A DNA stretch of 64,000 bases from Bryum argenteum (lineage: Eukaryota; Streptophyta; Bryopsida; Bryales; Bryaceae): contig CM073324.1 in assembly GCA_037043015.1 (NCBI GenBank), positions 16,024,597 to 16,088,596 on the forward strand. Direction: 5' to 3'. The notes below the pieces were generated by a model. That model saw nothing but the letters and a program-made list of their open reading frames with translations, had not been told where the DNA came from and ran no database searches. Shown one piece after another: positions 1 to 64,000 of this stretch; positions within the stretch are counted from its first letter, which is position 1; the number at the start of each line of letters is the position of its first letter. Both the position numbers and the translations under genes were made by a program.

Positions 1-3000
1 CCGTTCATTCCCAATCCGGCGAGTCCAATCCTTCTCGTCCTTGCTGCAAGCAATACCAGTTATTTTGTTCTGAAACTTGTCATTTACCAAGCATGCACCT
101 TTAACCAGGATGTGGTAGTCACACCAGAAGTATGATGAGAACCGGTACCTTAGGTAGCCTCCGGTGCGCACAGAGATGACCCAGCGGTTGTAGTCATGAC
201 ACGAAGCCCAGTACTCAAAGAAGTACGTCAAAAGCTCAGCAACTGTTTCCTTGTTGCGAGCCCCGAAGTTCTTGAGCGTGTTCACCTTATCGAAATAAGC
301 GCACTTGATAGTGCCCACAGTCACCTCGTAGGTTGGTTGCATACTCTGGATAGACCCACAATGTAAACTATTCGGTTCGAGCTACTTCACTTCGAAAAAA
401 TGTTCTCACTGATTCAGTAAGGAGGCAGACGTCCTAGTAACTGAATGTTCACGTCTGGCTTCAGGATACAATTCATCAAATGAAGAGCCCTATTTCTGAA
501 TCAATAAGCAAAGAATCCAAACCTAGATGAATGAAACCTAGTCTTAAACAAGGAAATTAGAACACACCTGAAGACACGGGAGTATGGCTGGTCTCCGTTG
601 CTGAAGGAAATGGATGCACATCAGGACATATCTGTGATTGGGACAGACAAACAGCATTAGAAAATCAAGCATTCACACATTTTTGTTTTGGAGTTAGGTC
701 CTCGCCTTCACAACCTAAAGACAAGTATGGGAATACCACCAATCCGGGATCTCCAACTATTCTTAAGAGGCTACAGGAACATTTGAACCACCTTCCTACT
801 CAAGAAAGAAAATGTGATAAAAGGACAACTGGTGATCTCCTCAACGGAGCAGCCAGGTGAGGAGAATATGGCTTACGCGTAGCTGGAGAGAGTGCCACGG
901 TATGTTTCATTGACTTGGCGTTGCTTTGCCCAGTGCTTCACCAGAAACGCTAGCTGCCTGAGACGAGGATCAACTTGGGAATAGTCATGGAGCAGCTTTG
1001 AGTTCACTACAGCCAACATGTTGTTGACACATATGTCGCAGTTGATTCCTGTGTCCGGATCCGTGAACTTCACGATTGGCACTCGAGCATGTGTTAACGC
1101 CTGCGACCCTGAATTCGATTAGTATAGTAACACATGAAGAGCACCCAACTATTAAAACAAGTATGATAAAAAACACTACACAGACAAATCACATGTCATT
1201 TGCCCAGCTCATGAGCAAAGAGCACCTGCACATTCTGCATGTCGTCAGAGCGTAGAATGGCAGCCATCTTCGTAACAAGCTCTGCCTTAGTGTGCTCATC
1301 GTCAACTGATAGACAAACATCAATATCACTGTTGCGCACGCCAAAATCGTTTGCACATGAGCCAAACAGAAACAGCTTCGCACCGCCCCAATCACGAGTG
1401 ACAAGCCTATCGAGATGAGTAAGAAACTTTCGTTGCCTTAGAACTTCTTCTTGAGAAGGAATCAAGCTCTGCGTGAACAAGCAGACTCGAATCATGAGAT
1501 TGCAGCCAACGATCACCGTGTTTGCAAACATAAAAGCTGCAGGCACAAAACAAGGTATATTGACAAAACGTGACATGCCTTGTAAATAGCAAGCAGCTGA
1601 GGATTGAACGTCTCAATATCGAATCGCTGCGAATCTCCTTTGATCAAATGGGTCGGGACATTGATACGCTGCTGCTGGCGACGCACTTCCCGAGAGTCTC
1701 GCAAGTTTCCAGGCTTCTCATCAAGCTCTGTTTCCTGAGACGAACCAAGAATAATAATGTCAGAAAACCGCCACAACTGCTTGTTTCGTTGAAGGACTCA
1801 ACGATGAGCAACATACCTCCCGAGCAAGAAAGGCCACACTCTGTGTGAGAGGGGGGGTTGTCGAAAGCTGCTGTGCGTCCTTTGCATGATTGGAAATGCT
1901 CAACTCCCGCATAAGTTCCTCCTCTTCGTCTCTGCCCATGCCATCCTCATATGTCAACCGCCCATTTTCCATCGAATACCTTCCAGCCCTTTCCCTGCCA
2001 CCACTTCGGACCCCCTCGTCCAACTGATACTGCAACTGCTGCTTGGACTCGTCCGTAGCAGATCCTGGCATGGAGGGGCGCACCGTGTTCGATGGAAGCC
2101 CTGGACGATCCACCTGTACAGTGATAGTGCTCCTATAGTTACATCTCTGGTAACATTTCAGCAACTCTAAACCCCTCACACGTCTTAGCCACATCCGTCA
2201 CAAGGCGGTTATACAATGACGAACTCCAAAACAAAACTCCAACAGGACCAGAATCAGCAACGACCACTGCACTACGTGTTGACGGCAACCTTCAAAAAGG
2301 ACGACAGTTAATGAAACTGTAGAAACCACAAAGCTTTGGTTGGAGCAAGGGCTAGACCTGCGAAGCAAGGGGGAGAATGCCCTCGGAGTTTCCATCCTGC
2401 TGGGCGAGCGAGCTCGCTCTTTGAGAGCCTCGTTCTGCGATAGGCTTAAAATGAGGAGGAGAGGCTTGTTTCATGCGCCATTCCTGTATTTGACCTCGAC
2501 GCCGTTTCAGATCCTCTTTCGACTTACCACCACTGCCATTTGAAGATGACTCGGTAGATGTTGCTGTAGCAGCCTGAGGACTCGCATTGACGTCCGCATC
2601 CGGCTCTCTTTCACCGTCCCTCTCCCTTGGTTTCTCATTCACAGCTACCCACTGCCCTGATCGGCCTGCTGAGCGACCCGCCGCTTCTGCTCGGCCACCG
2701 CGCCGACCACCTCCTCTTTTCCCAGTACTGCTTTCAGTTCCCATGAAGTCAGCTGAAGTTGTAGTTCCATCCTCGCGAGCCTTCGCATGGCCATCCTCCC
2801 TACTCCTAACGAACCGGCTGGAGTTTTGATGATTCCCTGCATCCGCCGATGCTTGGCCAAAGATTTCTTGCTTGAGTTCTGTTGAGGGCGAATGCTCCCA
2901 ATCGAGCGGTCCTTTCGGAACGCCGGTGAAATGATTCAAAGCCTTGACAGTTGAAGAGACAAAGGCAGGATCAATTGGTAAGCCATCTCCGAAGAATCCA

Positions 3001-3752
3001 GGCGGTGGCTTGGTAGGTGTAGATTTGAAGGGTGAATTTGCTTTCGAACCATCAAAGACTGCATTCAAAGATAAACTGCGCATCTGCTCTTCAGGATTCG
3101 GCTTATCTGCGGAGCCATTCGATAAGGTCCAGGAACGGCCAAGAAGGTGTTCAGGCTCGGACCCTTCGCTTCGTTTCGGAGGCCCAATGGGACCATGCAC
3201 TTGCGCCTTGGGCAACAGCAAATTGAGCTCTGCGGGGGGATTAACTGGCTTCAGAGATTGGGAACCTCCACCCATGAGAAGCTGCATAAGCTCCGCCCCG
3301 TCGCCGAGGAATTGCTGTGGCTGTGGAGGAGCCTTGAGAGGTAGCATAGGAGGAGCCCATGGCCGTGCTGCGCCATCGTTAGCCCGATGGTGCGGTGACG
3401 GAAGCCAGCCTTCCGATCGCCATCCGGTCGGCTGTTGTTGCGGTTCGCTCGGGTAGGGTGGAAAGCGAACCGGTGGCCTGGCACCCCAGAACTGCTGCTG
3501 CTGCTGCTGCTGCTGAGGAGGATTCCACACCCCACCTCCACCGTAATGAGCTGGTGGCGCCATGAACAACGGCTGGCTTGGTCCCAATGCCGCCACTGCT
3601 GGATCTCGATGATGCTGCCATCCCGATGCCTGCTCTAAGTCCTCTGACGGCGATGCTACCCCTTCCCCGTTGGCCACCCTTCTACTGCTGCTACTGCGCC
3701 CATCGCCTCCCCTTTGCAGCAGCTGCAACAGGAACTCCCCGTTCGGTTCCAT
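1..3752 (-). CDS. URT1: URT1-like terminal RNA uridylyltransferase (C-terminus off the left edge)
   Basis: Non-canonical poly(A)-polymerase family enzyme; plant URT1 adds uridines to deadenylated mRNA 3' ends in the cytoplasm. Seven exons can be joined in one frame: 3752-2358, 2113-1817, 1734-1579, 1468-1226, 1100-877, 631-568 and 345-1, giving 908 codons so far. Residues 1 to about 465 are a Pro/Gln/Gly-rich disordered region with an eight-Gln run, as in URT1. The nucleotidyltransferase core follows: [11 protein letters not shown], then the catalytic pair in NSDIDVC and the third acidic residue in INCDICVNN. Next come the central domain ([21 protein letters not shown]) and a PAP-associated domain ([12 protein letters not shown], ending RIGNER at the edge). 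The start is the first ATG of the 465-codon exon 1. The intron after exon 3 has a GC donor (AAG|GCATGT). HESO1 is the main alternative, but the long N-terminal region favours URT1. The gene is divergent from ATM. Confidence 0.85.
3492..3515 (-). repeat. CAG microsatellite coding a polyglutamine run
   Basis: Eight CTG units on the + strand encode eight consecutive glutamines in the disordered N-terminal region of the URT1-like protein. Such runs are length-variable; here it lies outside the catalytic domains. Confidence 0.9.
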
Positions 3753-34510: not shown

Positions 34511-37500
34511 ATGTCGTCAGATGGTGGGCTATGGGGTCTGGGTCGATGGTCCAACATTGACACATCATCGTCGTCGTCCTCATCTCAAGTAACAGAAGAT
34601 CGTTACTACGAACCTCCGTCGCAGTATCCTTCGTACGATTCTACTGCTCCCAGTGCTCCATCGTACCCGAATTACTATCCGCCATATCCACCTAGTAGTA
34701 GCAGCGATACTAGTAGTTTCTCGTACCCCCAAATCTATGGAGCTCCCGTAGAACCGAGCTACTACCCGCCTGTGTCATGGTCAAGCTCGCCGTATGTGAC
34801 CTCACCGCCGCTGCAGCAAGAGTACGCAACAAGTTCCTATGTCGCACCTTACACTCCATATCCAGCCGCTGCGCCGCAGGCTCCTCCAGGAGCCCCTTAT
34901 GGCGCACCGCAGGCCTCCTATGGTGCGCCGCAGGCTCTACCAGAAGCTCAATTTGCAGCAGCAAGCGCGCCAGCTCCAGGTCCTTACAACCAAGTGGCAG
35001 ATCCAACCGTGTATCCGCCACCCAGTGGTCGGATCCGTGATGAGCCACCACCCGGTCGGTTCCGCGCCAACAGCATGCCCTCAGGTAATCCTTCCCTTAG
35101 TTTAGGTGCACAACATTCGTAAGCAATTGTGTCTTAAACCCGGAAACACTGAAACAAGTATGAGTGAGGGACATGTTTCTCTGCTTGCAAGGCGTTGATG
35201 AGATTAGATTCTTTTTGGTGCTAAAGAATGTCAAGCAGTCAGTGTTATCGTCCTTGATTATGATATTTGTGGTAGCAGCTGGGAGGCCATATGATTCATC
35301 AGCACCGCCGCCATACGCTCGGTGTAACTCTGAATTCTCGTACCCGCAATCTCCACCCGCTTACGGTCGCAGCAGCTCCGATTACATGAGCCCCAAACCG
35401 AAACTGTATCCTTCTAGCCCGGCTGTCTACCCCGGTACGTCGCATTTTGCTCGTTCTTGCTTGATTATCTACAGCTCGTCCGGTCAGCAACTTACCTTCC
35501 GTTGTGCAGCAGATTCGACTCCAAGAGGGCGAAACAATAGTGGAGTACCGGCTCTCTTCCGCAATTCACTACCTCGTAGTGGAGGAGCCACGCTACTCCA
35601 CGGAACGCTAGACGTGACAATCTCAGAGGCGGTGCGACTACCCAACATGGACGTGTTCTCCCAGAAGCTCTCGGACTTCGCCTCCGGCCTATCCTTCTTC
35701 CAGAACAAGAAGGACAAGAACAAACTGAACGCGCCGAACGTTCGCATCACGAGCGACCCATACGTGACGGTCGTGTTAGGGAAGGCTCGGGTGGCGCGCA
35801 CCCGCGTGGTAAGCAACACCGTCAATCCGGCGTGGAACGAACATTTTTCGGTTCCCGTGGCACACTTCGTGCAGGAGATCGTGTTCAATGTCAAAGACCA
35901 GGACATGCTCGGCACCCAACACATCGGCGATGTCAAAATTCCCGTCTCCCAGGTCCGGGCTATGTCCGAATGCTCCAAATGCTCCAAATGCTCCGAATGC
36001 TCCGAATGATGTGCCATATTTCAGATCAGATCGAGCCATCCTGAGCGCTTTTGACATTCTTGTGACGTGATGGCGCGCATGCAGGTGATGAATGGTGGCG
36101 TGGTGACGGGGTGGTTCGATGTACATGATGCGCAAGGGCGGGTGACGAAGCACAATGCGCAGTTGCATTTGACTGCAAGTTACATTCCGGTGGAGGAAAG
36201 TCCAGTGTACACGCATACAACGGGCTCGGACCATGCGGTGCCTTCGACGTATTTTCCATCGCGGGCTGGGTGCCGGCTCACGTTGTATCAGGATACGCAC
36301 ATCTATGATCACTTTCGGCCGCGCATTCGGCTGCAGGGAGGCAAGCTCTACGAGCCGCCCCGGTGTTGGGAGGAGCTCTGTGTTGCCATTCATGACGCGC
36401 AGCACCTGATTTATATTGCGGGATGGTCTGTGAATGACAAAGTGAAGCTGATCCGTGACTTCAACCGTCCCATTCCCGCTGGAGGCACCTTGACCCTCGG
36501 TGAGCTTCTCATCTTGAAGGCCAGCCTGGGCGTTCGGGTGCTCTTAATGATCTGGGATGACAAGACCTCGCATGACCTCCCCCTTCTTAAGACGGTAAGC
36601 TTGCCATATCCAAAATTTTGAATCATGCAACGGGATGCAAAGATGAGTGTTCGCAACCTCGTGATTTGATATGATGATAAGATTGTAGCCCTCGCATGAC
36701 CTCTCTCTTCTCAAGACGGTAAGCTTGCCTCGTTGCCATCACAACAAATTCAGAATCTGAACTTAACACCCACTAACTTGGGGTGCACCATTGAAAATGA
36801 GTACTTGCAACCTCGTGATATGAAATAATGGTTAAGTCCACTTTTGAGTGTCACATAATGTGCCGTATTTTTAAAAAAAGTGAACTTTTTGTGTTGTTAT
36901 TAAGGATGGTGTGATGAACACACATGATGAAGAGACGAAGAGATTTTTCAAGGGCACGAATGTGCGTTGTGTTCTGGCTCCACGATATGGTGCCTCCAAG
37001 ATGAGCAGGTTCAGGAAACAGGTGCATCTCTTCACTTGCTTTTTGAATGTTTATCTTTGTTATAAGCCCTTCAATGTTTGAAAATCTGTAGCAGATTATT
37101 CACTTACGGTTTAAAGAGTATTCCCCTACACTCTTCAAAGAAGCCACTGACCTCATTTGATGATGTTGATAGGTGGTGGGAACTTTATACTCGCATCATC
37201 AAAAAATGACAATTGTTGATACCGGACCTTATGAGCGGAGGACGGTGACAAGCTTTATAGGTGGTCTAGATCTTACCGGTGGCCGTTGGGATACTCCCTC
37301 TCACTCTCTTTTCTCTTCATTGCAACGCGAGCATAAACATGATTTTCGTAATAAGTCGTGGTCGGTGTGTTCTCTAAACCTTCTTTCCAAGGTTTTGTCA
37401 TTGTTGCTACAAATATCTCTCTTTCATACATAGACTAGTGAGCGAATATATGTTTGGTTTGACATTTCTAATGTGAAGATCATCACTCATAGGCTTCTTG

Positions 37501-48859: not shown

Positions 48860-49258
48860 TTAGGGTGGTTTCATCTGCAACCAGTTGTCAGTGGCCATGT
48901 CGAAAAGCTCTTGAATCTGTTGCGACTCATAATCAGCCTGCTCAAGCTCCCTCTGAAGCTCCTGGCCAACTGCTTCGTTCTCAGCCTGCAACTCAGCAAT
49001 GCGCTTCATTTGCGCTTCCTCCCCTCCTTCAATGTCTGGCAAGGCCGAAACTAAGGCATCAAACCGCTTCACGGCCTGCACAAATGCCGTCGCCATCTCC
49101 TTTGGTTGCTCCAGAACCTCGGTCGAAATCCCCGCGGGTTTCGGGTAATCTGGAGCTAACTGCGATGGAGGCGCATCTCGCTGAATTGTACCTGCTGCAT
49201 TGAATGCTATGAACGCAATCGCACTCGCATGCTCTTGCAACTGCGCTATGATGTCCAT
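48860..49258 (-). CDS. MED21: Mediator complex subunit 21
   Basis: Subunit of the Mediator middle module, which bridges transcription factors and RNA polymerase II. The 132-aa product begins MDIIAQLQEHASAIAFIAFN, the usual MED21 start, followed by AAGTIQRDAPPSQLAPDYP, the EQPKEMATAFVQAVKRFDAL segment, LPDIEGGEEAQMKRIAELQ and a C-terminal helix (QQIQELFDMATDNWL). Length and order match plant MED21, and the coding region is a single exon. The frame stays open for 28 codons upstream to another ATG at 49342, but the conserved N-terminus supports the start at 49258. The 5' flank is interrupted about 560 bp upstream by the large LINE. Confidence 0.92.
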   Translation of the reverse strand: MDIIAQLQEHASAIAFIAFNAAGTIQRDAPPSQLAPDYPKPAGISTEVLEQPKEMATAFVQAVKRFDALVSALPDIEGGEEAQMKRIAELQAENEAVGQELQRELEQADYESQQIQELFDMATDNWLQMKPP

Positions 49259-49818
49259 TCTTGCTTTAAACTGTAAATTCCGCACAAATGCTCTGATTAT
49301 CACACGAGAGTTGAGGAAAATACTTCGATAATCATTCTGCATTTTGATACCTAGTGCAAAAGGAAGAAAGCAGCAAAAGTGAGAAAGGCTGTGAAATACT
49401 AACCGATGACTTAGGGTTCAGGGTTCTCACCTTAAAGTGCAATCGTAATTTGGAGCTTCTAGCGACCCGCGTGGTGGCAATTAAACGTGACGTTCTTAGG
49501 GAGGATCAACAGAGGGTTTTGTGCTCGGAAGAGTATTGACGGAGAGGATCTTCAGAGCTCAGAGCCAACCCTGCGTTTCCGGCATAGCGACTCCATTCCC
49601 GGTGCTAGAACAAAACTAATCGAACGGCAGCGGTCAAGGGTGAGTCTAGCAAATCGCTCAAGACAACAGTGACCAAGTCAAGTTCGACGTCCACGGAAGC
49701 TCGCTCGAAATGCAATTGCGATGCTTTCGTGCCCTCGCAAAAACACGCCCTAGCTCCAGAATGACTGTGGATACACGACGACCTCTTTAATATCACAGCT
49801 TCCGTAAGGTGATTGTGA
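49259..49818. promoter_or_regulatory. MED21 upstream region up to the LINE insertion
   Basis: About 560 bp of native 5' flank remain between the MED21 start codon and the 3' end of the LINE. A telo-box-like AACCCTAA (reverse of TTAGGGTT near 49422) lies here. The leader probably contains an intron, but its ends could not be fixed. Confidence 0.4.
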
Positions 49819-49847
49819 ATCCGTCGATAGATAGATAGATAAGAACT

Positions 49848-49870
49848 CCAATCTTCAAGTCGAAGATTGG
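49848..49870 (-). repeat. LINE 3'-terminal hairpin
   Basis: A perfect 9-bp stem CCAATCTTC/GAAGATTGG with a 5-nt loop sits directly before the TATC tail. The same position is a hairpin in the insertions at 31995 and 32879. In LINEs of the stringent type, such a 3' hairpin is the recognition site of the element's own reverse transcriptase; that role is inferred here. Confidence 0.85.
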
Positions 49871-50129
49871 CGTGAATACAGTGTCTGTTCGTAATGTCTT
49901 TACCTCAATGGCCACAGGATAAAGAGGTAAAAGAACAAAACTACTCACCCCTTACAGGAATAGACACTAAACTATACACGTAACTTAAAGTGGACTAAAC
50001 TAGAGTAACCAAGATAAAACTAAACTACAATAACCGAAATAGAACTATTTGGGGTGCGAGTGTTTGGTGGTGCAATGGGTCTGTTAAGTGGAATTTTGGT
50101 GGGATAATAGTCACCCAGCCGTGCACTCC

Positions 50130-50185
50130 TAGGGTGGTTGAGGTGTGGGACGATTGTAATCGTGCTGGTCCGAGTTCGAACCCCG
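50130..50185 (+). other. tRNA-like segment (Pol III box-like motifs) antisense in the LINE 3' UTR
   Basis: TAGGGTGGTTGAGG at 50130-50143 resembles an A box and GTTCGAACC at 50174-50182 matches a B box, at tRNA-like spacing. A short stem-loop (ACGATTGTAATCGT) lies between. No complete acceptor stem was found, so this is not a functional tRNA gene. It may be the head of a tRNA-derived SINE inserted in the LINE ancestor. Confidence 0.4.
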
Positions 50186-53100
50186 ACGGGCTCGTTTGAG
50201 CAGTACGCATGGCTTGGGGCTGTCTGTGAGTATATGGCAGGAGAGTAGTATCAACCACCCGGCCCCTACCCGGAAGCTGAGACTGAGGCAGTGCGCTGCT
50301 AACAACAGTGGTTTGCACCACTACCCCCCTTTTGTTTTTCATGGGGGTTCAATATTGGTGGGGAGGGTTTGGTGGTTTTCTAGTTTGCGTTTATGTAGGA
50401 GGATTAGTGCGGCGTGTCGTATGGCTATTGTGTTGATTGCTTTGAATGTGTTTTTGATTTGTTTTTTGGTAAGTTTGAATGTGGTTTCGAGTGAGTCCAT
50501 TGATGGTGTGTGACTTGTGCCTCTAGCGCCTGAAGTGATAACTATGAGCGGGTTGACTTTCCAACCACGGGCAGCTATTGAGTCTAGTAATGGTTGGTAT
50601 TTGTTAGTTTTATTTGTGATGGTTTCTCGCGGGAATCTGTCATTACAATATGTGAATTCGACGTATTGGATGACAATGTTGTCATTGGGGTGTTGTGGAG
50701 GTGTGCCGTTCAGTGGGAGACCTATTACGCATAGTAAGTCAGGTCTAAATCTGGCATTACAGTGGCATCGACGTGTGTTGCAATTGCAGGGGAGGAGCCA
50801 GCTTGGTACAGTGTTATCTGGGGGTGCGTTGAGGTGTGTCCCGGCATTTATAAGTGTATAGCATCTAGATTTGGAGTTTGAAAGGATAAGTTGTTTGATA
50901 GTTTTAACTGTCTGATTGTGCCTGGTAACTCTAAGTGCGTGAATGTTTGGTTGAGGACATTTAAGTAGGACGTGTAGCCACGTGTCTATGTCTGTGGAGT
51001 TGCAGATAGGACATAATTTTGATGGAAACCGTATATGTCCAAAGAACAGTTGTTTTCGTGCGTGTCCCATGTATTGTCCTGTGCGGAATTTTAGTATGCT
51101 AGTTATTTGAGAGTCTGTGATTGTTGGGTATTTCCAGAAGGCATTTGAAGATTTTGCATGTATATCTGGGTTGGAGGTCCATTTTTTGATGTTAGGAAAG
51201 TTCTCTGCTAGAGTTTTGAGGTTGTTTTCTCGATCGTATTTTGTAAGATATGTATCTAGGTTTCTGACTGGGCCTTTATCCGGTCTATGGTGCGGTCCAG
51301 GCCAGATATCTTTTTGGTAATAGAAAGGGGTAATGTGTGCAAATTCATGTTGTTTTTGGGCAAATTTATAGTTGTTCTCGTTCCCTGCTTTTGCAAGTTT
51401 GTCCGCTTTTTCATTGCCAGAGATGTTAACATGAGCTCGCACTTTATGGAATGTGGTGGGCTGAGTACGTAATTTTAACATATTGGTTATGGCGATGAGG
51501 GTGTTAAGATCGGGGTGGTTGTTTTGTAGGGTAGGGTGTGTGAGATGTGTTTGCAAAACATACAAGCAATTTATACAATCTGTGAAAATATATGCGGGTT
51601 CATCTATGTTTCTAGTTGTGAGGATTTTGAGTGTTTTGTATATGGCCATAAGTTCTACCCTAAAAATGGTTTGTAATCCCGGTAGTCTTTTTGATATTTG
51701 TATTTATGGTTTGGTTGGGTTATAAATACCATAGCCGGCAGTTTCTGGAAGCATATAGCCCTCTGCTGTTTTTTGTGGTGGTACGAAGGATCCGTCCGTG
51801 TAGTAATTGTATGCAGGTGGAAATTTAATAGGGAGATGTGTATTGTATCGTGGGAGGGGGGGTGTGTTGGAGAGATTGAATGTATAGGTTGGTGGGTATA
51901 GTAGTTTTGTCCAATTTTTGTTTTTGTTAACTCTTGTGTTCTGAGGGGTGGAGGGGATGTTTTGGAGGTGAAATTGAGTGATGGATAAATTTCTAAGGGT
52001 GGTTGTGAGGTTTTGTATGTCTGCTAGAGTGGTGATATTATGGTTTTTGTGGTGGATGCAGAGAATTTGTATCGTGTTTGGTTCAGTGCGGGGCTTTTTG
52101 TAATCGGTGGGAATGGTGGGTTCTTCGTATATTAATGTATCAGCAGCAAAATGTGCTAAAACGTGTGTATCTGGAAACTCGGTTGAGTATGGTGTTGGGT
52201 TATGGAACCATTGTTTGTCGGGCATGACAACAATGGTTGTGGCATTGTGGTCTTGTTGTGATGCTAACCTGGCCCAGTGTATGGTTTGTTGGGCAGATTC
52301 GTCGTTGTGAGGGTGGGCGTAGCCAAGTCCCTGCCATTTGTATTGAAAGGCAAGGCCACTGGAACCAAATATTTTGTCTCGAGAGAATGTGGAGTAGTAT
52401 TTTGTAATTTGGAGTGGGCATGTTACTGGGGAGGAGAAATATGTGTGTGTTATGTGGAAGGATGTAATAATGGTGTCAATTATGGCTGTGGGAAGCGTGT
52501 GATGATTTGTTATCTTGGAATTACGCTTGGAGAGTGTGTGGTGGTAACGTTTGTAGATGTAGGGCACTACGTTCTAGTTTTGTAGGGTTTGTATAGTATG
52601 CTCTGAAGTCTATGGGTGACATTAACGTAGTTCCATTTGGGAGGGTGAGATGTTTTATTTTGTAAATTTTGTGGTGTAGTAGTTTATATAATAATTTGAG
52701 GGATAGTTTGGGGTCTAAATGGGGTAGGAGGTTTGATGCTTGAGCCATCCAGTGTGTTTCTAGTTCAGTGGCTTCAAGTTGGAAGTTATTTATTGTGCTT
52801 TTTAGGTGAATTCCACCCTCTTCTTTCAGTAAAAAGAGTGTTCTGGTGATTGGAGAGTGTATACAGTCTTGGTATTTTATTCGGGGAATTTCTTTGGATC
52901 CACCAAATTTGGCTAAAATGTGTTGAGTAAGGCCTTGGTAAATAGGGCCAAGTTTGCCTTTATCGTTTAGTGCATTTATTAATTGGTCTCCAATGCATCT
53001 TAGATAAGCATTTTTAAGGGAAAATGCTTCAAGACCAAAGTCTTTGTGTGGTAATTGTGCTATAATGTTTGCTGTACATTTTGGTAGACCGCAAATTGTT

Positions 53101-55482
53101 TTCTGTATGCTTGATATTTTTCTGTCTAGTTTTTTGATCATTGGTAGTGAGAAGGGTACTGCATAGAAGCTATATGCGATGCCTGCACGTATTACTGTAT
53201 CTACCATGCTAATTTTTTGTTTGATTGTGGCTGGGCAATTTACAAGTTTTTGGCATTGTTCAGTAAGTTTTTTGGTTGTTAGGTGTGTTTGGAGTTTCCA
53301 TTTTAGTGTTGGTACCACTTGGATGCCGAGATATGGGTAGGCTTCGTTTTGGTGTAGTGTTGGTAATGGTTCATTTTTGTACTTGATGTTTTGTGTTTGT
53401 AGGAGGGTTTTGAAGGCGGTAGGTGTGAGTTTGGATTTATTTGGACATCCTGTAACTGCACATTTTTGTGTTCCAACTTCGAGTCCTGTCCAATCACTGA
53501 ATTTTTCTATTTTGTTCATTTGTATTTGTAATGCTTGAAGAGTGGCAGTGAGGGCGGCTAAATCATCCGCATATGCAGCAGAGTTAATTGTTGTGTTTGA
53601 TGTGCCAAATTTGAAACCATGGTTTCCTCTCTGTAGCCATCTGAGAAGGGGTTCAAGGAATATGATAAAGAGATATGGGCTTAGTGTGTCACCTTGGATG
53701 GTGCCACGTTGGATTGGAATTGGTTTTGTTTGTCCAAAGTGTTCGCCGGTATATGTAGTAGTGGAGTGAGAGTAAATATTACCAATAAGTGCGACAGCAT
53801 CTGTTGGATAACCAAGGTCTATCATTATTGCCAAAAGTCGAGCGTGGTCCAAGGAACCAAAGGCATTCTCGAAATCGATGTACATAATGTAGATATCTTG
53901 GTTTATGAGTCTGGCATCTTCAAGAGCCGCGGTGATAAGTTGTATTTGTCGTGAGGTGCTTCTTTCAGCGCGAAAGCCTTCTTGGCTATCGTGTAGTATT
54001 TGGTGATGTTCTCCATAGGCTGAGAGGATAAATGTGAGAGTGCTGGTAAAAAGTTTGTATATTGTGTTGGCTAAGGCAATGGGTCTGTGGTTAGGGAGAA
54101 GTGAGGGGTCGCCTTTCTTGTATAGTAAAATAGTAAGGCTTGTCTTCCAAGATGCAGGTATTTGTTTTTGTTTATAACAGTGGGAGAAAAAGAGGTATAG
54201 GAGTGAGTGAAATGAGTCTGACATATGTTTGAGAATGGAATTGGGGATCTTATCTGGGCCAGGGGCTTTGTTACGTGAGAGGTTTTTTAAGCAGATGTCA
54301 AAAATCTCGCGATTGTAGTATTTATGTAGGGGGGTCTCTGGGTTACCTCTCTTTTCAAGGGTAAAACCATCTAATTCATGCCATGGATATTGACGAACTG
54401 CACAAGTACAGTTTTGAGGGTGTTCTGGTTGATAATAGCATGTTGGAATTGTTGGGCGATTAGTAATAGATTGTTGGGAGAAGATTTCCTGGGCTATATC
54501 TTCTAGGCTAGTAAGGATTTCATTGTTAAGTGTAGTGATGCAGTCCATTGGTGGGGTTTCTAGATTTTAAAGACCCGGTTGTTTATTTTCTTGGGGCTAG
54601 TGTTGTAGAGCTGCCTGTATTTGGTTATAGCTTTTTTGATGGATTGGCGGGTATATTTCGTGGTGATAGTACGTGCTTTTTTGTTTGCGGTTTTGGCTGT
54701 TTCTGCCAATGTGTTTAGCCATTCTTGTTTAGTATCATCATTTTCTGGGGGTGGTGGTATGTTTGTAGGTGTATGTTGTTGTGTGGCTTGTATTATTGGA
54801 TGTTGTCTCCAGTTGTTGTTGTTGTTGGCTATGTAAATTGTTTTGCGAATTAGATGGTATGTAGATAGGTGTTTTTTCCATTCTTTTTGGGATTTCCGTG
54901 GTAGGAAGCCACCTTGATGGTTGGTGTGTGAGGTGAGGGTAGGAATGGGAGAGGCGGTACATGTAGTAAGTAGTGTTTCTGTGATATTGTTTATGAGTTG
55001 GTCTAGTTGTGTACAAGCATTGGTCCATTCGGTGGAGGTAATTTCGTCTTGTTGTAGAGTTGTTGAGAGGTTGTTCATGTCGAGTGCGTTTCGTTCGAAG
55101 AATGTAGTGTTGAATGCATCCAAGTTAGCTTGGGGGATGGGGTTGAGAATTCTCAGTGGTTTTGCAGTGGAAATTGGTGGTGGTCTTGCTATAAGTGATT
55201 GGTGGGGGATGTGTAGGATTACTGGAGAGTGATCTGAGTTTAAGTCTAGAGTGTGGTTGGTGGTGGATGTGAATGAGGTGTTGTTAGAAGAGTTGATATA
55301 GTAGTCATCAATCAGGCTGGTATCCGCGTAGTTATGGCCGCCTTGCCTGGAGAATGGGCTGTTTGTCGGAACGTATGTGAGATTGAGGCTATCAGTGAAT
55401 GCACGCCAATTTGTGTCTTCATCTTGTGGGGGTGTAATAGTGTCGGCATGTAGTTTACCAATTAGGGCTATATCTCTGTTAA

Positions 55483-56408
55483 CCCCTAAAAATCCAGGGG
55501 TTTCCTCGACCTCCAGAACCAAAAACTGCCATTTTTCACCTTCGTTGGGAAATGGGGAAATGGAGAAACTTTTTTTTCCGGTTTTAGACTTTGAACCGTA
55601 AGATCTTGTACCTAACTTGTATACAAAGGACTGGTCAAAATTTCAACCGTTGGATGTTTGTCATTTGTGAGATCATAACAATCAAAGTTTGACCAACACT
55701 TTTTTTTGCCGCTGCGTGAGAGGCATTGTCTAAATGGTGCCAAGGGCAACTTGATGATTGTTATTCCAAATATTTTTCCCTCATTTTTTTTCATGTAGGT
55801 AATCAAGTTGGGTATGCTCATGCAAAATTTTAGAGACCAATTCCACTTTTTGACCTTAACGTAAAATATTTTATGAAAGAAGGTCTAAAAACAACCATAT
55901 AGTAAAACAAGCACCACGTATGATATATTTAGTTTGAGAAAAATCTTGACGGTGAGAAGGTGCATTTATGATAATGTGAATTTTGAAAAAAAAAATCTTG
56001 GAAAAAATCCAAAATCTCGAATTTTGGCAATTTTTGAAAGGAAAAATTGTAAAATTACTAGAAATTGTGAAGATTGTTTTTGAAAGTTTTGGAGGCTGCC
56101 CTTGTAAAATTGGTAAACTTTTTGACTTCGGATACTTTGGAATTTGAATAGTAATTTGGTAATGAACATATTTCTAAAAAAAAAAAATTAAAAAAAAATA
56201 TTTTAAACTGCCCGTTTAGGACTTGAAACCTAAAATTTCTAGGTGAAGGTTATAAAATTAAAATTTGACTTTGAAAATTTTACCACATACACATTACTGT
56301 ATGGGGAGCACTCAATAAAAATCTTAGGCAAAAATATCAATTTAAATGCTTAAAATGAGCTGCCTGAAATCTCAGAAAACCGAATCGGTTTTCCTGGATT
56401 TTTAGGGG
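55483..56408. mobile_element. piggyBac-like non-autonomous DNA transposon, 926 bp, nested in the LINE
   Basis: Perfect 16-bp terminal inverted repeats CCCCTAAAAATCCAGG are flanked by TTAA on both sides (55479-55482 and 56409-56412), the hallmark of piggyBac insertions. Deleting the element plus one TTAA exactly restores the LINE endonuclease frame as CGDFNRDIALIG. The inside is AT-rich, with no transposase. It inserted after the LINE did, in codons of the conserved GDFN motif. Confidence 0.9.
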
Positions 56409-57526
56409 TTAAAATCCCCGCATAAGATGTGGGTGTGGTTTGGATGAGTTTGTATGTGGGAGGCTATTGTTTGTTGAATGAGAGGTATTAAACTTATATC
56501 TTGTGGGTGGGATGGCATGTACATGTGAATTAGAAGCCATGGTGTTAGTGGTTTGTTTGCAATAAGGATAACTTGGAGGTATGGCGAAATGTTTGCTGGA
56601 GTGGGGATTTTTGTAATGTTGCCCGGCGAGGCGTAATTCTTATGAATAAGTGTGAGAAGGCCCCCGCGAGTAGGGGTGTGTGCAAATCTTTGCTGGATGC
56701 ATCGAGTTAAAGCATGGGTGTTATTAAACACAAATTTGTATTGTGGGAGCATTTGTTGAATGTGTTTTGTAGATTTATTGGCAGTGAGTTTTGTCTCTTG
56801 GATTGTGACTATGGCTGGGTCGTTTTGAGTGAGTAGATGTAGACTTGGTAGGGCAGTATTTAGGGAGGCGGCATTCCATGTGAGTAATAGAGTTTTGGAT
56901 TGAGTGGTTAGTTGCGGTTGAGGTTGGATTGGGGGGGTAGGCAGTAGTGTGGGTGGGTGGGAGTATTCAGGAAGTTGTTCATTGCAGCGTAATGCTTCGA
57001 GTAGTAATATTTTTGGTAAGTATGGGAATTTGGTTTGTAATGTTTCGAGGGTAGTAGGAATGTTGGGGTCCAGTATATGTTGGTATAATTATGCGTGAAT
57101 GTTTTTTAAAGGGTTTATGATGTGTTGGTGTGTTTCTAGGAAATTTGTGTATGGGTGTGGATTATTTAGGTGCCTAGATGGAATATTTGGTAATCGGGAG
57201 AGTTTGTTAAGTAGTGATGTTGTCCAATATGGGTTAGGGTTGGATGTTATATGTTGTTCACAAATTTGTAGTTGCGGGCTTATGGTGGTAATGAAGGCAT
57301 ATAGTAGGTCTGGAGGAGGGAATTGTAAATGATTGTGTACGTATCTTGTTAGACATGGATATGAGGTTGCACTTGTGGGGTGGTTTGAGTGTGTAGTTTG
57401 TATGATGGAAGAAAATGTAGTTGCTAGATGTTTGTATTCGGGGTATAGTATTATGGTGCTTGGAATGAAGTAGGTCTGACTCTGTCGACAGTGTTTTGCT
57501 GGATGTGAGTGTAGGACGTTGGGCAT

Positions 57527-57565
57527 TGGCCCTGGGTTTGATTCAATGTCTCCGCAGTTCAGGAG
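57527..57565 (-). other. 2A-type ribosome-skipping peptide in LINE ORF2
   Basis: The codons read LLNCGDIESNPGP, matching the 2A consensus D-(V/I)-E-x-N-P-G-P, preceded by a hydrophobic stretch (YIVPNMLFLL). In other 2A peptides the ribosome skips the bond between the last Gly and Pro (codon at 57529-57527), releasing the upstream product. 2A motifs are known at this place, before the APE domain, in several animal and protist LINE families. Confidence 0.85.
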
Positions 57566-58039
57566 AAATAACATGTTTGGAACTATGTATCTTATGAGTG
57601 TTTGTAATTGTGGTTTGGAGAGGTGAAGTGTCGTGAAGATTACGAATGTGATGGATACAGTATTATATAGTTTAGAGAGGGGGTATTCATTAATGTATGT
57701 GAAGTGCCTGTGAGGAGTTGGTCGAACGGGCGCTCCAATGCTGGGTTTGGTGTAAGTGCATGTACCTGAGAGTTCTATGAGGAAATTATATATACTATGT
57801 AATATAGTGGTTTGTGAGTGTTGTGTGTTTGGGAGGTTGGGATCTTGGTAGAAATATGTAGTATTTGTCATGAAGAATGTGTCTATTCGTATTCTGATTA
57901 TCTCAATGGCATTTGTCATGAGTAAACTGTCTGTGTGTGCTGTGATTATGTCAATGGGGATTGAGTGCTTTAAATTGTATATGATTAGTGTGGTTATAGG
58001 GGTGGTTAGTAGTTTTAGAGTTGGCGTGGAGTAAGTGTG

Positions 58040-58405
58040 TGTTAGGGGTGATTTGTACTTTGATATATTGTGTTCATTGGTTGGTTTGAAAGGGTTTGTG
58101 TTATTTGAAAAGTGTTTTTTGGCTATGTAGGTAACGTATTGGATATCGAGAGTGCGATGTGCGGTGCATATGTGTTTTGTTTGGTTTGTGGATTTTATCT
58201 TATGTGTTATGTACTTTGATAAAACGTGTTTATTGGTTGGTTCGAAGGGGTTTGTGTTTTTTAAAGAGTGTTTTTTGGCTATGTTGTTTGTGTATATAAT
58301 GTATTTTGTTTTGTTTGAGGTTTTTATTTTATGTGTGATGTAATTCGATAGAGTGTGTTTATTGGGTAGTTTGAAAAGGTTTGTATATTTTAAAGAGTGT
58401 TTTGT
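58040..58405 (-). repeat. Three coding tandem repeats in LINE ORF2 N-terminal region
   Basis: About 40-50-residue units recur three times: KHSLKYTNLFKLPNKHTLSN, then KHSLKNTNPFEPTNKHVLSK, then KHFSNNTNPFKPTNEHNISK, the first two followed by YITHKIK-like residues. On the DNA the periods are about 126 and 159 bp. The frame is kept through all three, which supports real coding of this low-complexity region. Confidence 0.8.
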
Positions 58406-59501
58406 GGTTATGTGTTTTTGTATTGGATGTGTTATGCTTTTTATGGAAGTGTGGTGTAGGTTTTGTGTTAGGTAGCAGTGTGAGTTATGTAATGGACTAG
58501 AGTGGGAAGTGGTGTGATAAGACACGTGAGGTTTGTGTATAAGAAGAAACATATTATATAGGTTGTGAATAGGTCGGATGGACACTAAAAAGGTGGATAG
58601 ATAGAAAATCTGGTGTTTCTGGAGGGAGCAGACATTAATGAAGTGTCCGTTCGGAATGTTAATGCCTCGATGCTCAACAGGCACTATTTTTTCGTGGAGT
58701 ACATAAAAAAGTACTTGACATGTATGTGTTAGTGGTTGTGTGGAGTTTGGGGGAGGGTATTGGAGGGTATTAAGCGGGTATACATTATATGACCCATATG
58801 TTTTTGCTCTGTGGTGTTTATATGTTGTGGAGGTAGCATGTCGTTGGTTTATACCCTCCCACGCCGGGTATGAATGGAGAAAAGGGTACAATTGGCACCC
58901 AGCCGGGTATGGTCGGGCGGGTATCTCCGGAGTGGTGAGAAGGCCAGGGGTAAGTTTGCGCGAGCTTAGGGTTTTGTTTTTTCTTGAATGCAGGTCTGGT
59001 TGCTGGTTTGGGAGAGGCGATTTGCTTTGTTGTTTTCTATTCATGCGCCTGTCGGTGCGTGTGTAATGAGAGCGTGCGTTACAGTGCGTCTCGATGTGTA
59101 GGACGTGTTGTAGCGGTACTTTTGTTGTTGTGATGTGATTAGGTGGTACTGGAGCACATGTTTGGATCGAAGTGTGGCTTGGACAATGGTTTAGACCTAG
59201 AGCGTTGTAGATCAAATATGTATGTTGCCTACAAGAGTATTTGTGTAATATAAACAGTTGTGAGAGGAGATGAGTACGGTCGGAGCTTTTAGGTAACGTA
59301 ACTGTTCGGTACTGTGCATTTACACTTGGTGTCAGGTTAGTGTTAAGATGTTGTGGCATTAGGTATTGGTTGCGGTGTGTCTGCATATTGTGATCCAACG
59401 AGGGTAGAGAAGTAGGCAATGCGGAGAGTGTATTGCTATTGCAGGAGAGCGTCAAAACGCAAATACAAATGAAACCAATGAAAACCTTCCAGAAAGTTGT
59501 A

Positions 59502-62500
59502 CTAATCATAAGTGTGTGGGTTTTGGAATCCGGGGGGCCTGGAAGGCGCCTGCTGCATTGGTCCGGACAAGAGCGCATTTGAGATACCACTCATGTGTGT
59601 GGAGTAGTCTCTGGAGGCGGTGGTGAGCAGTTGCAATTGCTTAAGCATGTGTTGGTGTTGCCTTTGTTGGGTGGTAGCAACGGCGTCCACTGTGATTGAC
59701 GTATGTAAGTTCACCTCCGTGCTTAGCGTATGTAAGCGTAGCTGCAAACTGTCAACTCCCTCTTGTATAGACTTTTGTATCTGTGTGAGTGACGGTCCTC
59801 CGGTGTTTCATTCTTGAGTGCTACTATGGCGTCATTGAGTATTTCTCGGGTCGGGCGATTGTCGTAAGCTTTCGTGTGCTCCAGGGGTGCGACGCCATTG
59901 ATGCTTCTGTGGTGCGGAGTAAAATCCACCATCTTCCCGAGGAGAGGAACCGCCCTCCTAGAACACCATGCTGTGTATGCTCCTGTATTGGTGCAGCATA
60001 TTGTGGCGATGCCGTCGTGGCGTCCTAGTTCGTCTGCTTGTGCGCGGTTGTAATGTATCGTACTGATGTTGTTCTCTCCAAACATGTTGTGCAAGGCATG
60101 CGATACTTGATTCTGCGCATAGAGAGTGTTTAGGCCTCTTACCAAAATAGAGGTGCTGAGGGGGTCCATAGACGATGGTGTTGTCGAGGAGCTAGGCGCT
60201 GGGAGGTCCAGGACCGATGTAGGCTGATCCTCAAGCGTCGGTGGGTTGGCGAGCAGGAAGTCTTTGCTCAGGGCGCCAGTGACGGTAAGTTCAGCCGTAG
60301 TCGTGTTGGTGAATTTCTTCGACACTCCTACCACTTCTGCATGGCCCGAACTCATGTAGCAATATGTAATCAAATTTGCCTGTAGTTTTCTTGAGTTGTA
60401 ATCCGCTAGGGTTGGACCAGAAATATGAAGTCTGCGATTATTTGCAGTTGACTGGAACTCATAGCCCTTCTCGATCTTTCCAATGACGAACTCCTTGGTT
60501 TGCAGCTGCATTGTGAACACACGAAGACCACGTAGCAGAGCGAGCCCGTCTCTCTCAGGGTGTAATAGGTCAGCTCGGAGAAATCCCAGCCAGCCATGTG
60601 TGCGGCGATTTACAATGGCACTGACAGGTTCTCGAAATCTTGTGCTTAGAGGGATGTCCATAAGTGCAAATCTAGCAGTAGCTGCGTCTTGAGCTTGTTT
60701 CTTAGTCATTCTATGATAATCTGAATCAAATCTAATGATGATGTGATAACTAGTGGAAAGACTTGTTTTTGGATCTATTTCAGTACCTCTAGGAAGTTGC
60801 GTTAAGTGTAGATATTGTCCCGTTACTCCATCCGGGCGAGAGGTGGGATAGAGAGATTGAGCAACATGAGGGAATGAGTGTCTACAGGAATGGAATTCGA
60901 GTACTTCTACATCTGGCATGACTCCACTTGTGACAGCTTCTACTGACAAATTACGACATATAGGGAGTCCTAGCTGAGAATTTAAGTGTTCATGTACACT
61001 GAATGTCAACCATAAGAGGGGAATACATGAATCTTTAGAGAGAGGAGGTATGGGGTTAGAAGCGTTGCCTTGTGGAGTGTCTGTTGCCTGGAGTGCAGGC
61101 GTCGGTGGGAGCTCTTCTATTCGAAGTTGTGTCACCGTAGGAGTTAGCGCTTTCTTTGGAATCACCTCGGCGTTCGGCGTGCTGTGGTACGCACTTGATG
61201 CTGAGTCTCGAGATGACTGAGGCTGGTTGCTCATTGGTGCTGCCGAGGTGTCGCTGGGCTCGTCTCTGGATCGGCGAGTGTAGGTCCTGGCGCGCTTGAT
61301 TGTTTCCTCTGGTCTCGACGGGAGAGTTGACGGCGGCATCTCGGAGTTGCTACCACTTGGGCGGTCGGCCTTGGAGTTGCCTGTGTCCCTTGACGGCTTC
61401 TCCGTCATCTTAGAGGTAGACTTGCGCTTGCCTGAGCCGGAGCCTGTGGAATTAGAGTTGGGGTCCATGTGATCAAAATGGCTAATAAGATGTGTTGCTA
61501 ACGATGAGATTGCTATGCAAGGTGTGCATAGGTCCGGTTGTGAGAAAACGCTCAAAGGATGTGATGGGGTTAAGGTGAGTGAGTGGTGATTTATATGGTG
61601 TGTGTCTGCCTTTGCATTGTGTGTGTTTTGAGGATATCTAGTTTGTGGTGATGTGTTTATTTTTGCGGTATGGGACAGTTGTGGTTGCTTTGTGGTGTGA
61701 GAGCAACGGATTAAGTATGTTGGAAAGTTGGGGTATTGGCAGCTGGAGTTGGCCTTTCCAGTTTTGAGAGGGCAAAAGAAGTGCCGAAAAAGCAGCCGTG
61801 TGTGAGGTTGGGTGGCGACGTTCTGGGAGGAGGTAGCTAGGAATGTGGAGGTTGGTTCTGTGCGCGAGCTGGCCGTGACTTCAGCTGTGTTGTATTTGTG
61901 TGCTTGGAAGGTATGCATTGTCCATTGGAGCATGTAGTGATCTGTCCTTCGGTACGCTGAGTGCAAGTGGTTTCTCCATATTGCGTATCTTGTATAGCCG
62001 CTTTTTTGGATAAAATACACTGAAGTTTGAAGTGGTATTGTAAGTGTGTGTGTTTGAATATGTAGGGTGTGTAAGTTGTGGATGGTTCGTATCGTGTTTG
62101 AGGTGGTGTTTTGCTTCCTAGTTTGTGTATTAGGGAAGCGGTTTGGTGCTTGTGTGTGTATTAAGAGTGCGGTGGAGGTAGTCCATCTTGTGCGAGATGA
62201 TTGTGAAGGGTTGTTTGCTTGTGTATTGTCTTGGCTTATTTGTGTTGTGTAAGGTGTAATGAGTATGTGATATTGGGCGATAAGTGTGCAATGTGGTAGT
62301 GTGTTTGTATACGTGTAGAGGTTATTTCGTGGTGAGACCACGAGAGAGAGGAAAACAGTTGCAAGCGCTCCATAGGAAGCGGTACTACGCCAGTTAACTA
62401 GTCTCGACAAAAGGGGCGAGCCGCGTCGTGTCTGTGGTGAGTTTGGTGGTTGAAGGTTCCTCCATGGGAAAGCAGCAAGTAGGGACGCATTTGTGTTGAA

Positions 62501-62746
62501 GAACACACAAGGCTTGAATTGGTGCAAGTATCGAGTATCTTCAAAGGTGGTGAGTTTCTGCTGTGGCGGTGCCGCGCGGAGGAGCACCAAGTACAAGAAC
62601 GAGGCTGCTAAGGCGTCTAGGTTGCGAGAGAAGTCTCGGCGGTGGCGGCATGTTTGAGGGTTTTCGGCTAGGGCAAGGAACCTATTTCTACGGAGCTCCA
62701 TCCTCTGTCCAGTCCTCGAACATTGTACCCGAACTGTCTCACTCAT
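59502..62746 (-). pseudogene. LINE ORF1 (RNA-binding, RRM-like), frameshifted near its 3' end
   Basis: A frame of 1007 codons is open from 62746 to 59723. Its first ATG uses two bases of the target duplication, so it is not the native start. A better start is the ATG at 61468 (MDPNSNSTGSGSGKRKSTSK), giving 581 aa with ordinary composition; the 426 codons upstream are G-poor and may be 5' UTR. An RRM-like block lies near the end (TSILVRGLNTLYAQNQVS to LGKMVDFTPHH). The natural C-terminal coiled coil (SLTQIQKSIQEGVDSLQLRL onwards, Gln-rich) is in another frame that ends at 59502, which implies a frameshift near 59805. It probably binds the element RNA, as ORF1 proteins do. Confidence 0.65.
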
Positions 62747-62753
62747 CCGTCGA

Positions 62754-64000
62754 CACTGTGATATTAAAGAGCATCAAGAGTGTTCAAAGCCCATACAAAC
62801 TTACTCATGTATGTTACGATAGTTTGAGCCTCTAAATTGTTTGAATGTTTGAATTAGTGTATAACTATTTCCATATGAACTTCTAATGTACTTCTTTTCT
62901 TTAACGCTTATAGGACCAAAAATGAAAACTCAAATTTTATATTAATTTAGAATGAGCTATGTGCCTCATTTACACATGTTATGAATACTTCAAAAACCAT
63001 AAATTGTTCCTTTTAAAACTACAAAGTCTACAATAATAGTTTCACGGAACATTTTGGATAAGAAGGGTCATTGCACTATATAGAATTCTCATGTCATAAT
63101 ACACTCGGAAAAATCTTCGTCGTCTTATTTGATGCTAGTTTAACCCCTAAATGTCCTTGAGGTATTTTTAGCCAGAAACACATTTTTCATGAAAAGTGTC
63201 ATAGATAAAAATGAAAGGAAGCTATTTAGATATCAACTGTACAAACTTTTAATATACTTGTCTTAGATCATGTGGACCAAAAGTTGATTCATGAGACCTT
63301 ATAGATTGCGAGATCATAACATATTAGTACACGAACAGACTACAAGGTTCCATCATTTTCACTTTGAAGTGAAAATACTACCAACATAAAAATTGCAATA
63401 AAAAATAACATATTAGAAAGTTGTTCATCTTCTTTTTGTAGATACTTTTCTACCAAAGAAAGCATCAAAAAATATCATGGCTCTATAGTAGCCTTCTAAT
63501 GGTGAAAACTGCCTCAAAATTTACAAAGAGAAAATAGTCCAAAACTAGACCCTATAAGGCTAAAACTCAAATCCATGCCTAATGTCAATACATTAATTTT
63601 TGATTAGGTTGAGGTTTCTATCACTAAACTAAGACTATTATTGGAATTCATCCCAAAAAATGAAGTTGAAATCTAACATTGGATGAAGGAAATCTAGCTC
63701 CTCAAAAACCATTCATCTTTTCACTTTCTTCATTGTAGAAACATCATTGCAAACACAATACCAAAGTTATTTGGATCAAAAAACTTGCAGCTATAGAGTT
63801 ATTAGGATGCATCTACAGTTCATACTTTTAGAAAAATTATTTTAAATTTCACATAATTAGCTTGCAATGGTAAAACATGCCCCATGTTTGGAATTCCCAG
63901 AAACAAAAACTACCTTCACTAAAATGCATGCCATTCATTCATACTTCATTGTATGAGTCTCCAATTTTCACAGTGCAAACTAGACTTAATTTGGGACCCA
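62754..64000. other. AT-rich spacer at the right edge
   Basis: No gene is recognised. Near 63142 the text TTAACCCCTAAATGTCC resembles the outer end of the piggyBac-like element at 55483 but has no matching partner end in view. Several phrases resemble the AT-rich spacer around 31.3-31.7 kb. Confidence 0.4.

Follow-up and report, generated by a model that had tools for sequence, protein, structure and literature searches.

An inactivated dual-endonuclease LINE with a PCIF1-derived domain, very probably from a land plant

A stretch of 64,000 nucleotides (the window) carries on its minus strand a 12.9-kb long interspersed nuclear element (LINE) that we regard with high confidence as an inactivated copy of a Dualen/RandI-type LINE with two endonucleases, of a kind that is, or not long ago was, active in its host, very probably a land plant. 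Comparison with sister copies in the same genome, together with predicted folds, showed that the protein of the second open reading frame (ORF) behind a 2A sequence (ORF2p) combines an APE endonuclease, a reverse transcriptase (RT), a domain derived from PCIF1/CAPAM, RNase H, a CCHC knuckle and an R2-type restriction-like endonuclease (RLE). A preliminary description of this DNA had named 2A, APE, a YADD-bearing RT, RNase H, CCHC-like, FRPDLL, YVEFTYCND and NKYQPLL motifs, all of which were found on the minus strand, and had placed the element at 49828..62744; the 3′ end proved right to a few bases (49826–49841) and the 5′ end is provisional. The same description had overlooked the PCIF1-derived domain, a nested miniature inverted-repeat transposable element (MITE), a ~750-bp deletion, the stops and death of the copy, and the position of 2A near the ORF2 N-terminus. 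The parts are as follows.

49826..62744, minus strand: whole LINE, 12.9 kb including a nested 934-bp MITE; 5′ end provisional
62745..62753, minus strand: candidate 5′ target-site duplication TCGACGGAT, beside the ORF1 start
49819–49827: 3′ partner of TCGACGGAT, its first two letters being part of the tail
59723..62746, minus strand: putative ORF1, 1007 codons
57527..57571, minus strand: 2A (StopGo) motif LFLLNCGDIESNPG/P, near the ORF2 N-terminus
55220..56884, minus strand: APE endonuclease (LTWNAAS, QETKL, GDFN, NSDHSPV), split by the MITE
55479..56412, minus strand: nested MITE with an 18-bp terminal inverted repeat (TIR) AACCCCTAAAAATCCAGG and a TTAA duplication (piggyBac-like)
52521..54548, minus strand: reverse transcriptase ORF (RVT_1, 3.9e-28), YADD at 53559–53573
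52554..52556, minus strand: deletion junction, ~750 bp absent relative to sister copies
52127..52567, minus strand: PCIF1/CAPAM-derived domain (Pfam PF12237, PCIF1_WW, 2.7e-10), between RT and RNase H
51389..51805, minus strand: RNase H (Pfam PF00075, 5.7e-6, second part), broken by a stop near 51704
50957..51013, minus strand: CCHC zinc knuckle CPICNSTDIDTWLHVLLKC, aligned with the R2 knuckle by family profile
50339..50900, minus strand: RLE, recognized from sister copies and relatives, with its motifs placed in the window
50732–50746, 50639–50662 and 50585–50614, minus strand: RLE motifs RPDLL, VEFTYCND and NKTNKYQPLL, respectively
49826..49870, minus strand: 3′ terminal hairpin (CCAATCTTC...GAAGATTGG, by eye), then a (TATC)n tail

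Strand bias is strong across the element (GC skew 0.25 to 0.53 in 2-kb windows from 50 to 62 kb). Its 3′ end lies at ~49826, given that 39 of 40 scored genomic matches (40 scored of 798 candidates) stop at query positions 498–513, equivalent to 49826–49841, the 40th being the window itself. The 5′ end is set only by the ORF1 start and the candidate duplication, which at 9 nt is by itself not significant. The 2A core, CGDIESNPG/P, occupies 57527–57556 on the minus strand. The N-terminal half of APE matches Pfam PF03372 (Exo_endo_phos, 1.6e-7), and the piece with the C-terminal half gave no Pfam match. Against the PDB, the window RT matches R2 (1.4e-35) and human L1 ORF2p (1.2e-19); the knuckle has the spacing C-x2-C-x9-H-x4-C. 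ORF1 had no Pfam match.

Sister copies supplied the intact frames. The genome searched (258.8 Mb, 25 contigs) yielded 67 RT matches of 71–100% identity, with open frames of up to 2941 codons (66 of 655 candidates scored). Parts of 19 copies were analysed and neighbouring pieces were joined for 10, making 11 stretches with the window. In two copies (c1 and c2) a single open frame spans 2A to RLE, while the open part starts behind 2A in c3 and shortly before APE in c10; all four carry APE, RT, RNase H and RLE motifs. APE exceeded the Pfam cut-offs in c1 and c10, RNase H reached 4.4e-13 in c1, and the RNase H Glu (RAEL) was identified by eye in both c1 and c10. The 2A core GD(I/V)ExNPGP, present in 10 of the 11 stretches including the window and absent from c9, matches the published consensus (D/G/C/N)(V/I)ExNPGP, as given in the portion consulted of PMC12846837. 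Target-site duplications (TSDs) were found in five of the six sister copies tested—12 nt in c1, 13 nt in c6, c10 and c12, and 15 nt in c11—and 200 shuffled flanks reached the observed length 0 (c1), 3 (c6), 0 (c10), 1 (c11) and 2 (c12) times; c3 showed no TSD, the length being reached in 175 of 200 shuffles. By TSD and end limits, full-length elements measure ~11.2 to 14 kb, and the sequence just inside the 5′ end is common to c10 and c12. At eight 3′ ends a hairpin, recognized by eye, precedes a tail of short repeats, which is (TATC)n in six and (AT)n in c6 and c9. Site-specific insertion was rejected because the seven readable 3′ flanks beyond the tail are, by eye, mutually unrelated; c9 continues as (AT)n.

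A search with the open ORF2 of c1 returned 62 proteins, 35 of which (P0001–P0034 and P0057) form the dual clade. Iterated profiles detected APE in 30 of these, PCIF1 in 33, RNase H in 34 and the RLE segment in 31, the last covering the knuckle part only in a few. Misses are mostly fragments or partial gene models, and the five proteins without an APE match begin inside or just before RT, or lack APE. A second search gave 37 matches, including 36 new fragments (38–63% identity), none under a eukaryote name and one labelled as an archaeal metagenome-assembled genome; a third, with a Haematococcus protein as the query, gave 116, and those named by organism were all Haematococcus lacustris. In an RT tree of 67 rows (LG+C20+F+G4, midpoint root), the window RT falls together with the Haematococcus elements inside a 37-row clade (support 99/90). 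The PCIF1-derived domain is present in 36 of these 37 rows (the window row counted by Pfam; the exception, P0024, is a shorter protein) versus none of the 27 other database rows. P0038, with APE, PHD, RNase H and, by eye, an RLE-like C-terminus, is sister to the clade (97/95), RLE-only rows with R2 join next (87/85), and human L1 lies in a separate group of APE rows. Judged from this tree, the RT is placed between the RLE-only and APE-only groups, as in Dualen/RandI. The dual-endonuclease reading of the preliminary description is supported by this tree, whose only named L1 is human and which is without plant L1, RTE or Chlamydomonas Dualen rows: the RT lies in the dual-endonuclease clade next to R2-like RT.

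Several further observations concern these proteins. P0197 (4923 residues) carries PCIF1, RT and RNase H as well as a C5 cytosine DNA methyltransferase (PF00145) in precomputed Pfam, possibly a second methyltransferase capture in the dual clade or a fused gene model. An Ulp1-type peptidase occurs in P0003 and P0199, a SET domain in P0199, and OTU matches below cut-off in P0002–P0004. A chromodomain-like stretch between RT and PCIF1 (c1 2025–2100), noticed by eye only, was dropped as a candidate, with no Pfam chromodomain in the three own-genome proteins, P0002–P0005, P0009 and P0011. In scans of viral contigs, the RT matched one stretch and the C-terminus five, none of them confirmed as a relative.

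The C-terminus, which had been called restriction-like from motif spacing only, matches R2 by family profile and by predicted fold in sister copies and relatives. Searching the window C-terminus alone against the PDB with phmmer found nothing, and Pfam and NCBIfam yielded no RLE family; the RLE became visible only through the family profile and the fold. Its PD is invariant and its E almost so in an 18-row alignment (A1); P0010, P0013 and P0014, outside A1, have FD or ID instead of PD. One Lys is kept, at either of two positions, in all 31 readable proteins, and dN/dS is 0.07–0.13 where finite. In the R2 chain 9nl2 the aligned Lys lies four residues before Tyr, as in the element.

PF12237 matches are numerous in the genome. 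In a search with this profile, all 150 matches scored (of 209 candidates), whether LINE-borne or not, lay above the curated cut-off, and none were found in 14 control genomes. No separate high-scoring host PCIF1 gene was seen among the scored matches, the best of which reached 60 bits. The domain shares with PCIF1/CAPAM, the mRNA cap adenosine N6-methyltransferase, an FxSPL..FG segment and the methyltransferase-core fold (retained in the predicted fold of c1); it differs in lacking the NPPF tetrad, in having no WW domain in the three own-genome ORF2 proteins (E up to 1) and in being part of a LINE polyprotein. The canonical tetrad [ND]PP[FYW] appears in 0 of 65 rows, where its place is taken by HPHN (19), NVPA (12), NPEY (11), HPHT (8) and fifteen others once each, with differences between subclades; the window has HPHN (52304–52315). 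Selection on the domain is strong.

The host is very probably a land plant, because 28 exon-level NAC-domain matches occur on five contigs and a Med21 ORF stands beside the element. NAC families of such size are a land-plant trait. These same observations support the earlier proposal of a land-plant lineage of dual-endonuclease LINE. The Med21 ORF (window 48863–49342) is on the same strand, and the LINE copy ends ~0.5 kb upstream of its start; the Med21 protein had no match among phage records. Elsewhere in the window, a GC-richer stretch holds a minus-strand ORF of 466 codons without a Pfam match (2352–3752), and a C2-domain ORF (2.2e-19) lies at 35164–36009.

The window copy is, as read from its frames, dead because ORF2 has an in-frame stop at 57089 and a further break at ~51704. 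The APE domain is interrupted by the MITE (934 bp counting both TTAA copies, its 18-bp inverted ends being perfect); once the flanks are rejoined, the empty site reads CGDFNRDIALIG in frame. Exact matches to the TTAA plus TIR pattern of the MITE number 532 (forward) and 534 (reverse) across the genome, against 0 and 0 for the reversed control, and by this pattern the MITE belongs to a large piggyBac-like family; among the matches listed, such sites are often paired ~0.9 kb apart. The ~750-bp deletion, mapped by aligning window stretch 11447/11446 with c3 10789/11540, falls between RT and the PCIF1-like part and removes the first part of the PCIF1-derived domain. In the open stretch upstream of 2A, which is little conserved among copies, three tandem repeats of ~120 nt (68–82% identity) occur at 58014–58418. 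A 16-bp perfect inverted match (CTCTTTAATATCACAG / CTGTGATATTAAAGAG; E 0.003) lies just outside both LINE ends, at 62756–62771 and 49783–49798.

The consulted portions of the literature describe Dualen as carrying both APE and RLE (PMC3636483, PMC4640811), as present in the Chlamydomonas relatives studied (PMC8226300) and, under Dualen/RandI, as listed for green algae only (PMC4438587, Table 3); RandI tails are (ATT)n and (CTATTT)n (PMC3747384). The element resembles Dualen/RandI in combining APE upstream of RT and RLE downstream in the same ORF, in its RNase H and in a short-repeat 3′ tail instead of poly(A) (PMC3636483, PMC4640811, PMC3747384). It differs in its host, very probably a land plant where PMC4438587 lists green algae only, and in its PCIF1-derived domain, of which the portions of the Dualen descriptions examined, the founding 2005 account aside, make no mention. 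Charophyte and dinoflagellate retrotransposons also took up methyltransferase-family domains; according to the part consulted of PMC5890265 these are C5-cytosine DNA methyltransferases, whereas the LINE carries a relative of an RNA-cap N6-adenosine methyltransferase. Among the titles and abstract openings surveyed, none describes a land-plant LINE with two endonucleases or any LINE bearing a PCIF1 domain, and the founding 2005 Dualen paper or Odon 2013 may contain either. The CCHC knuckle and RLE fold are shared with R2. R2 itself is not known to carry an APE, RNase H or PCIF1-derived domain, and its target is 28S rDNA; the element, in contrast, is not RLE-only, having an APE, and its copies have seven unrelated 3′ flanks, not one rDNA site.

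These parts suggest a replication cycle. A 2A stop-go event would separate a short leader from ORF2p, which would bind the element RNA through its 3′ hairpin; the first strand would be nicked by one of the nucleases, most likely APE, and the RT would prime from that nick (target-primed reverse transcription); RNase H would clear the RNA, and the RLE/knuckle module would hold the target DNA and cut the second strand 12–15 bp away. The PCIF1-derived domain has lost its methyltransferase tetrad and would most likely act in RNA binding, with the capped 5′ end as a possible ligand. A fuller history, which in our estimation could equally prove right or wrong, is that dual-endonuclease LINEs, from green algae to the land plant, took in an mRNA-cap methyltransferase domain at an early stage, and that its chemistry was then lost while strong selection preserved the fold for RNA handling (perhaps cap binding); the polyprotein would grip both RNA ends, two working nucleases would cut the two target strands, and the RLE catalytic Lys would have moved between two structural places more than once.

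That the PCIF1-derived domain is still an active methyltransferase with a changed tetrad (HPHN, NPEY, NVPA), its substrate being the element RNA (perhaps at the cap) or else RNA or DNA of the host, would fit the retained fold and surrounding residues, the strong selection and the N and Y kept as NPEY in 11 of 65 rows. We consider it unlikely: a conserved activity should have preserved the tetrad, so the variation between subclades and the complete absence of the canonical form weigh against it. We judge equally unlikely that the RLE is a catalytically idle remnant for DNA binding only, with APE making both cuts. The four copies examined have a full set of APE motifs, and APE-only LINEs manage with one nuclease; yet the RLE's invariant PD and near-invariant E in A1 (FD/ID in P0010, P0013 and P0014 notwithstanding), its low dN/dS and a Lys at one of two places in every readable protein, hard to explain without catalysis, favour a working enzyme.

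Descent from an ordinary plant L1 or RTE with a chance RLE-like C-terminus has next to no probability. APE and RT are general LINE parts and plant L1 elements may also carry RNase H (in the part consulted of PMC4640811), but the RT tree (with human L1 as its sole named L1 row), the RLE profile and the fold contradict this identity; the preliminary description had named an RT within plant L1 or RTE and a C-terminus without an RLE profile match as the outcomes that would count against it, and neither occurred. Contamination of the assembly by an alga, brought to mind by the named close relatives from Haematococcus, is very improbable, given RT matches on C1 to C11, NAC-domain matches on five of the same contigs and the proximity of the window copy to Med21. 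Other points weigh against our own account. Of the 35 relatives, 15 have PF12237 by Pfam itself, which misses it in Haematococcus P0019, the remaining PCIF1 calls resting on a profile iterated within the same protein set. In the profile search the RLE stretch by itself scores weakly (0.14 and 0.0086; two R2 chains shown) and the unrelated Atg16-1 scores 8.6e-4; many pairs show saturated dS. Support for the join to RLE-only LINEs is moderate, many branches are long and deep forks are weak, and the element is assigned to its clade from Haematococcus proxies and from its domains, not from Chlamydomonas Dualen. Some shuffles match the TSD lengths of c6, c11 and c12, and c3 is without a TSD. We infer from sequence how the two strands are shared between the nucleases, that the 2A is active, and what the PCIF1-derived domain does.

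The shift of LINEs from RLE to APE is an old question for which dual-endonuclease elements, so far listed for green algae only, are a natural test case, and a land plant in which the element is multicopy and ORF2 is open in a few copies may offer a second and perhaps more tractable system. The alternating Lys speaks for a functional second nuclease and shows which residue to test in each lineage. The PCIF1-derived fold—clade-wide, selected and apparently inactive—ties these LINEs to cap biology and would make it directly testable how the protein of a LINE recognizes the capped RNA that encodes it.

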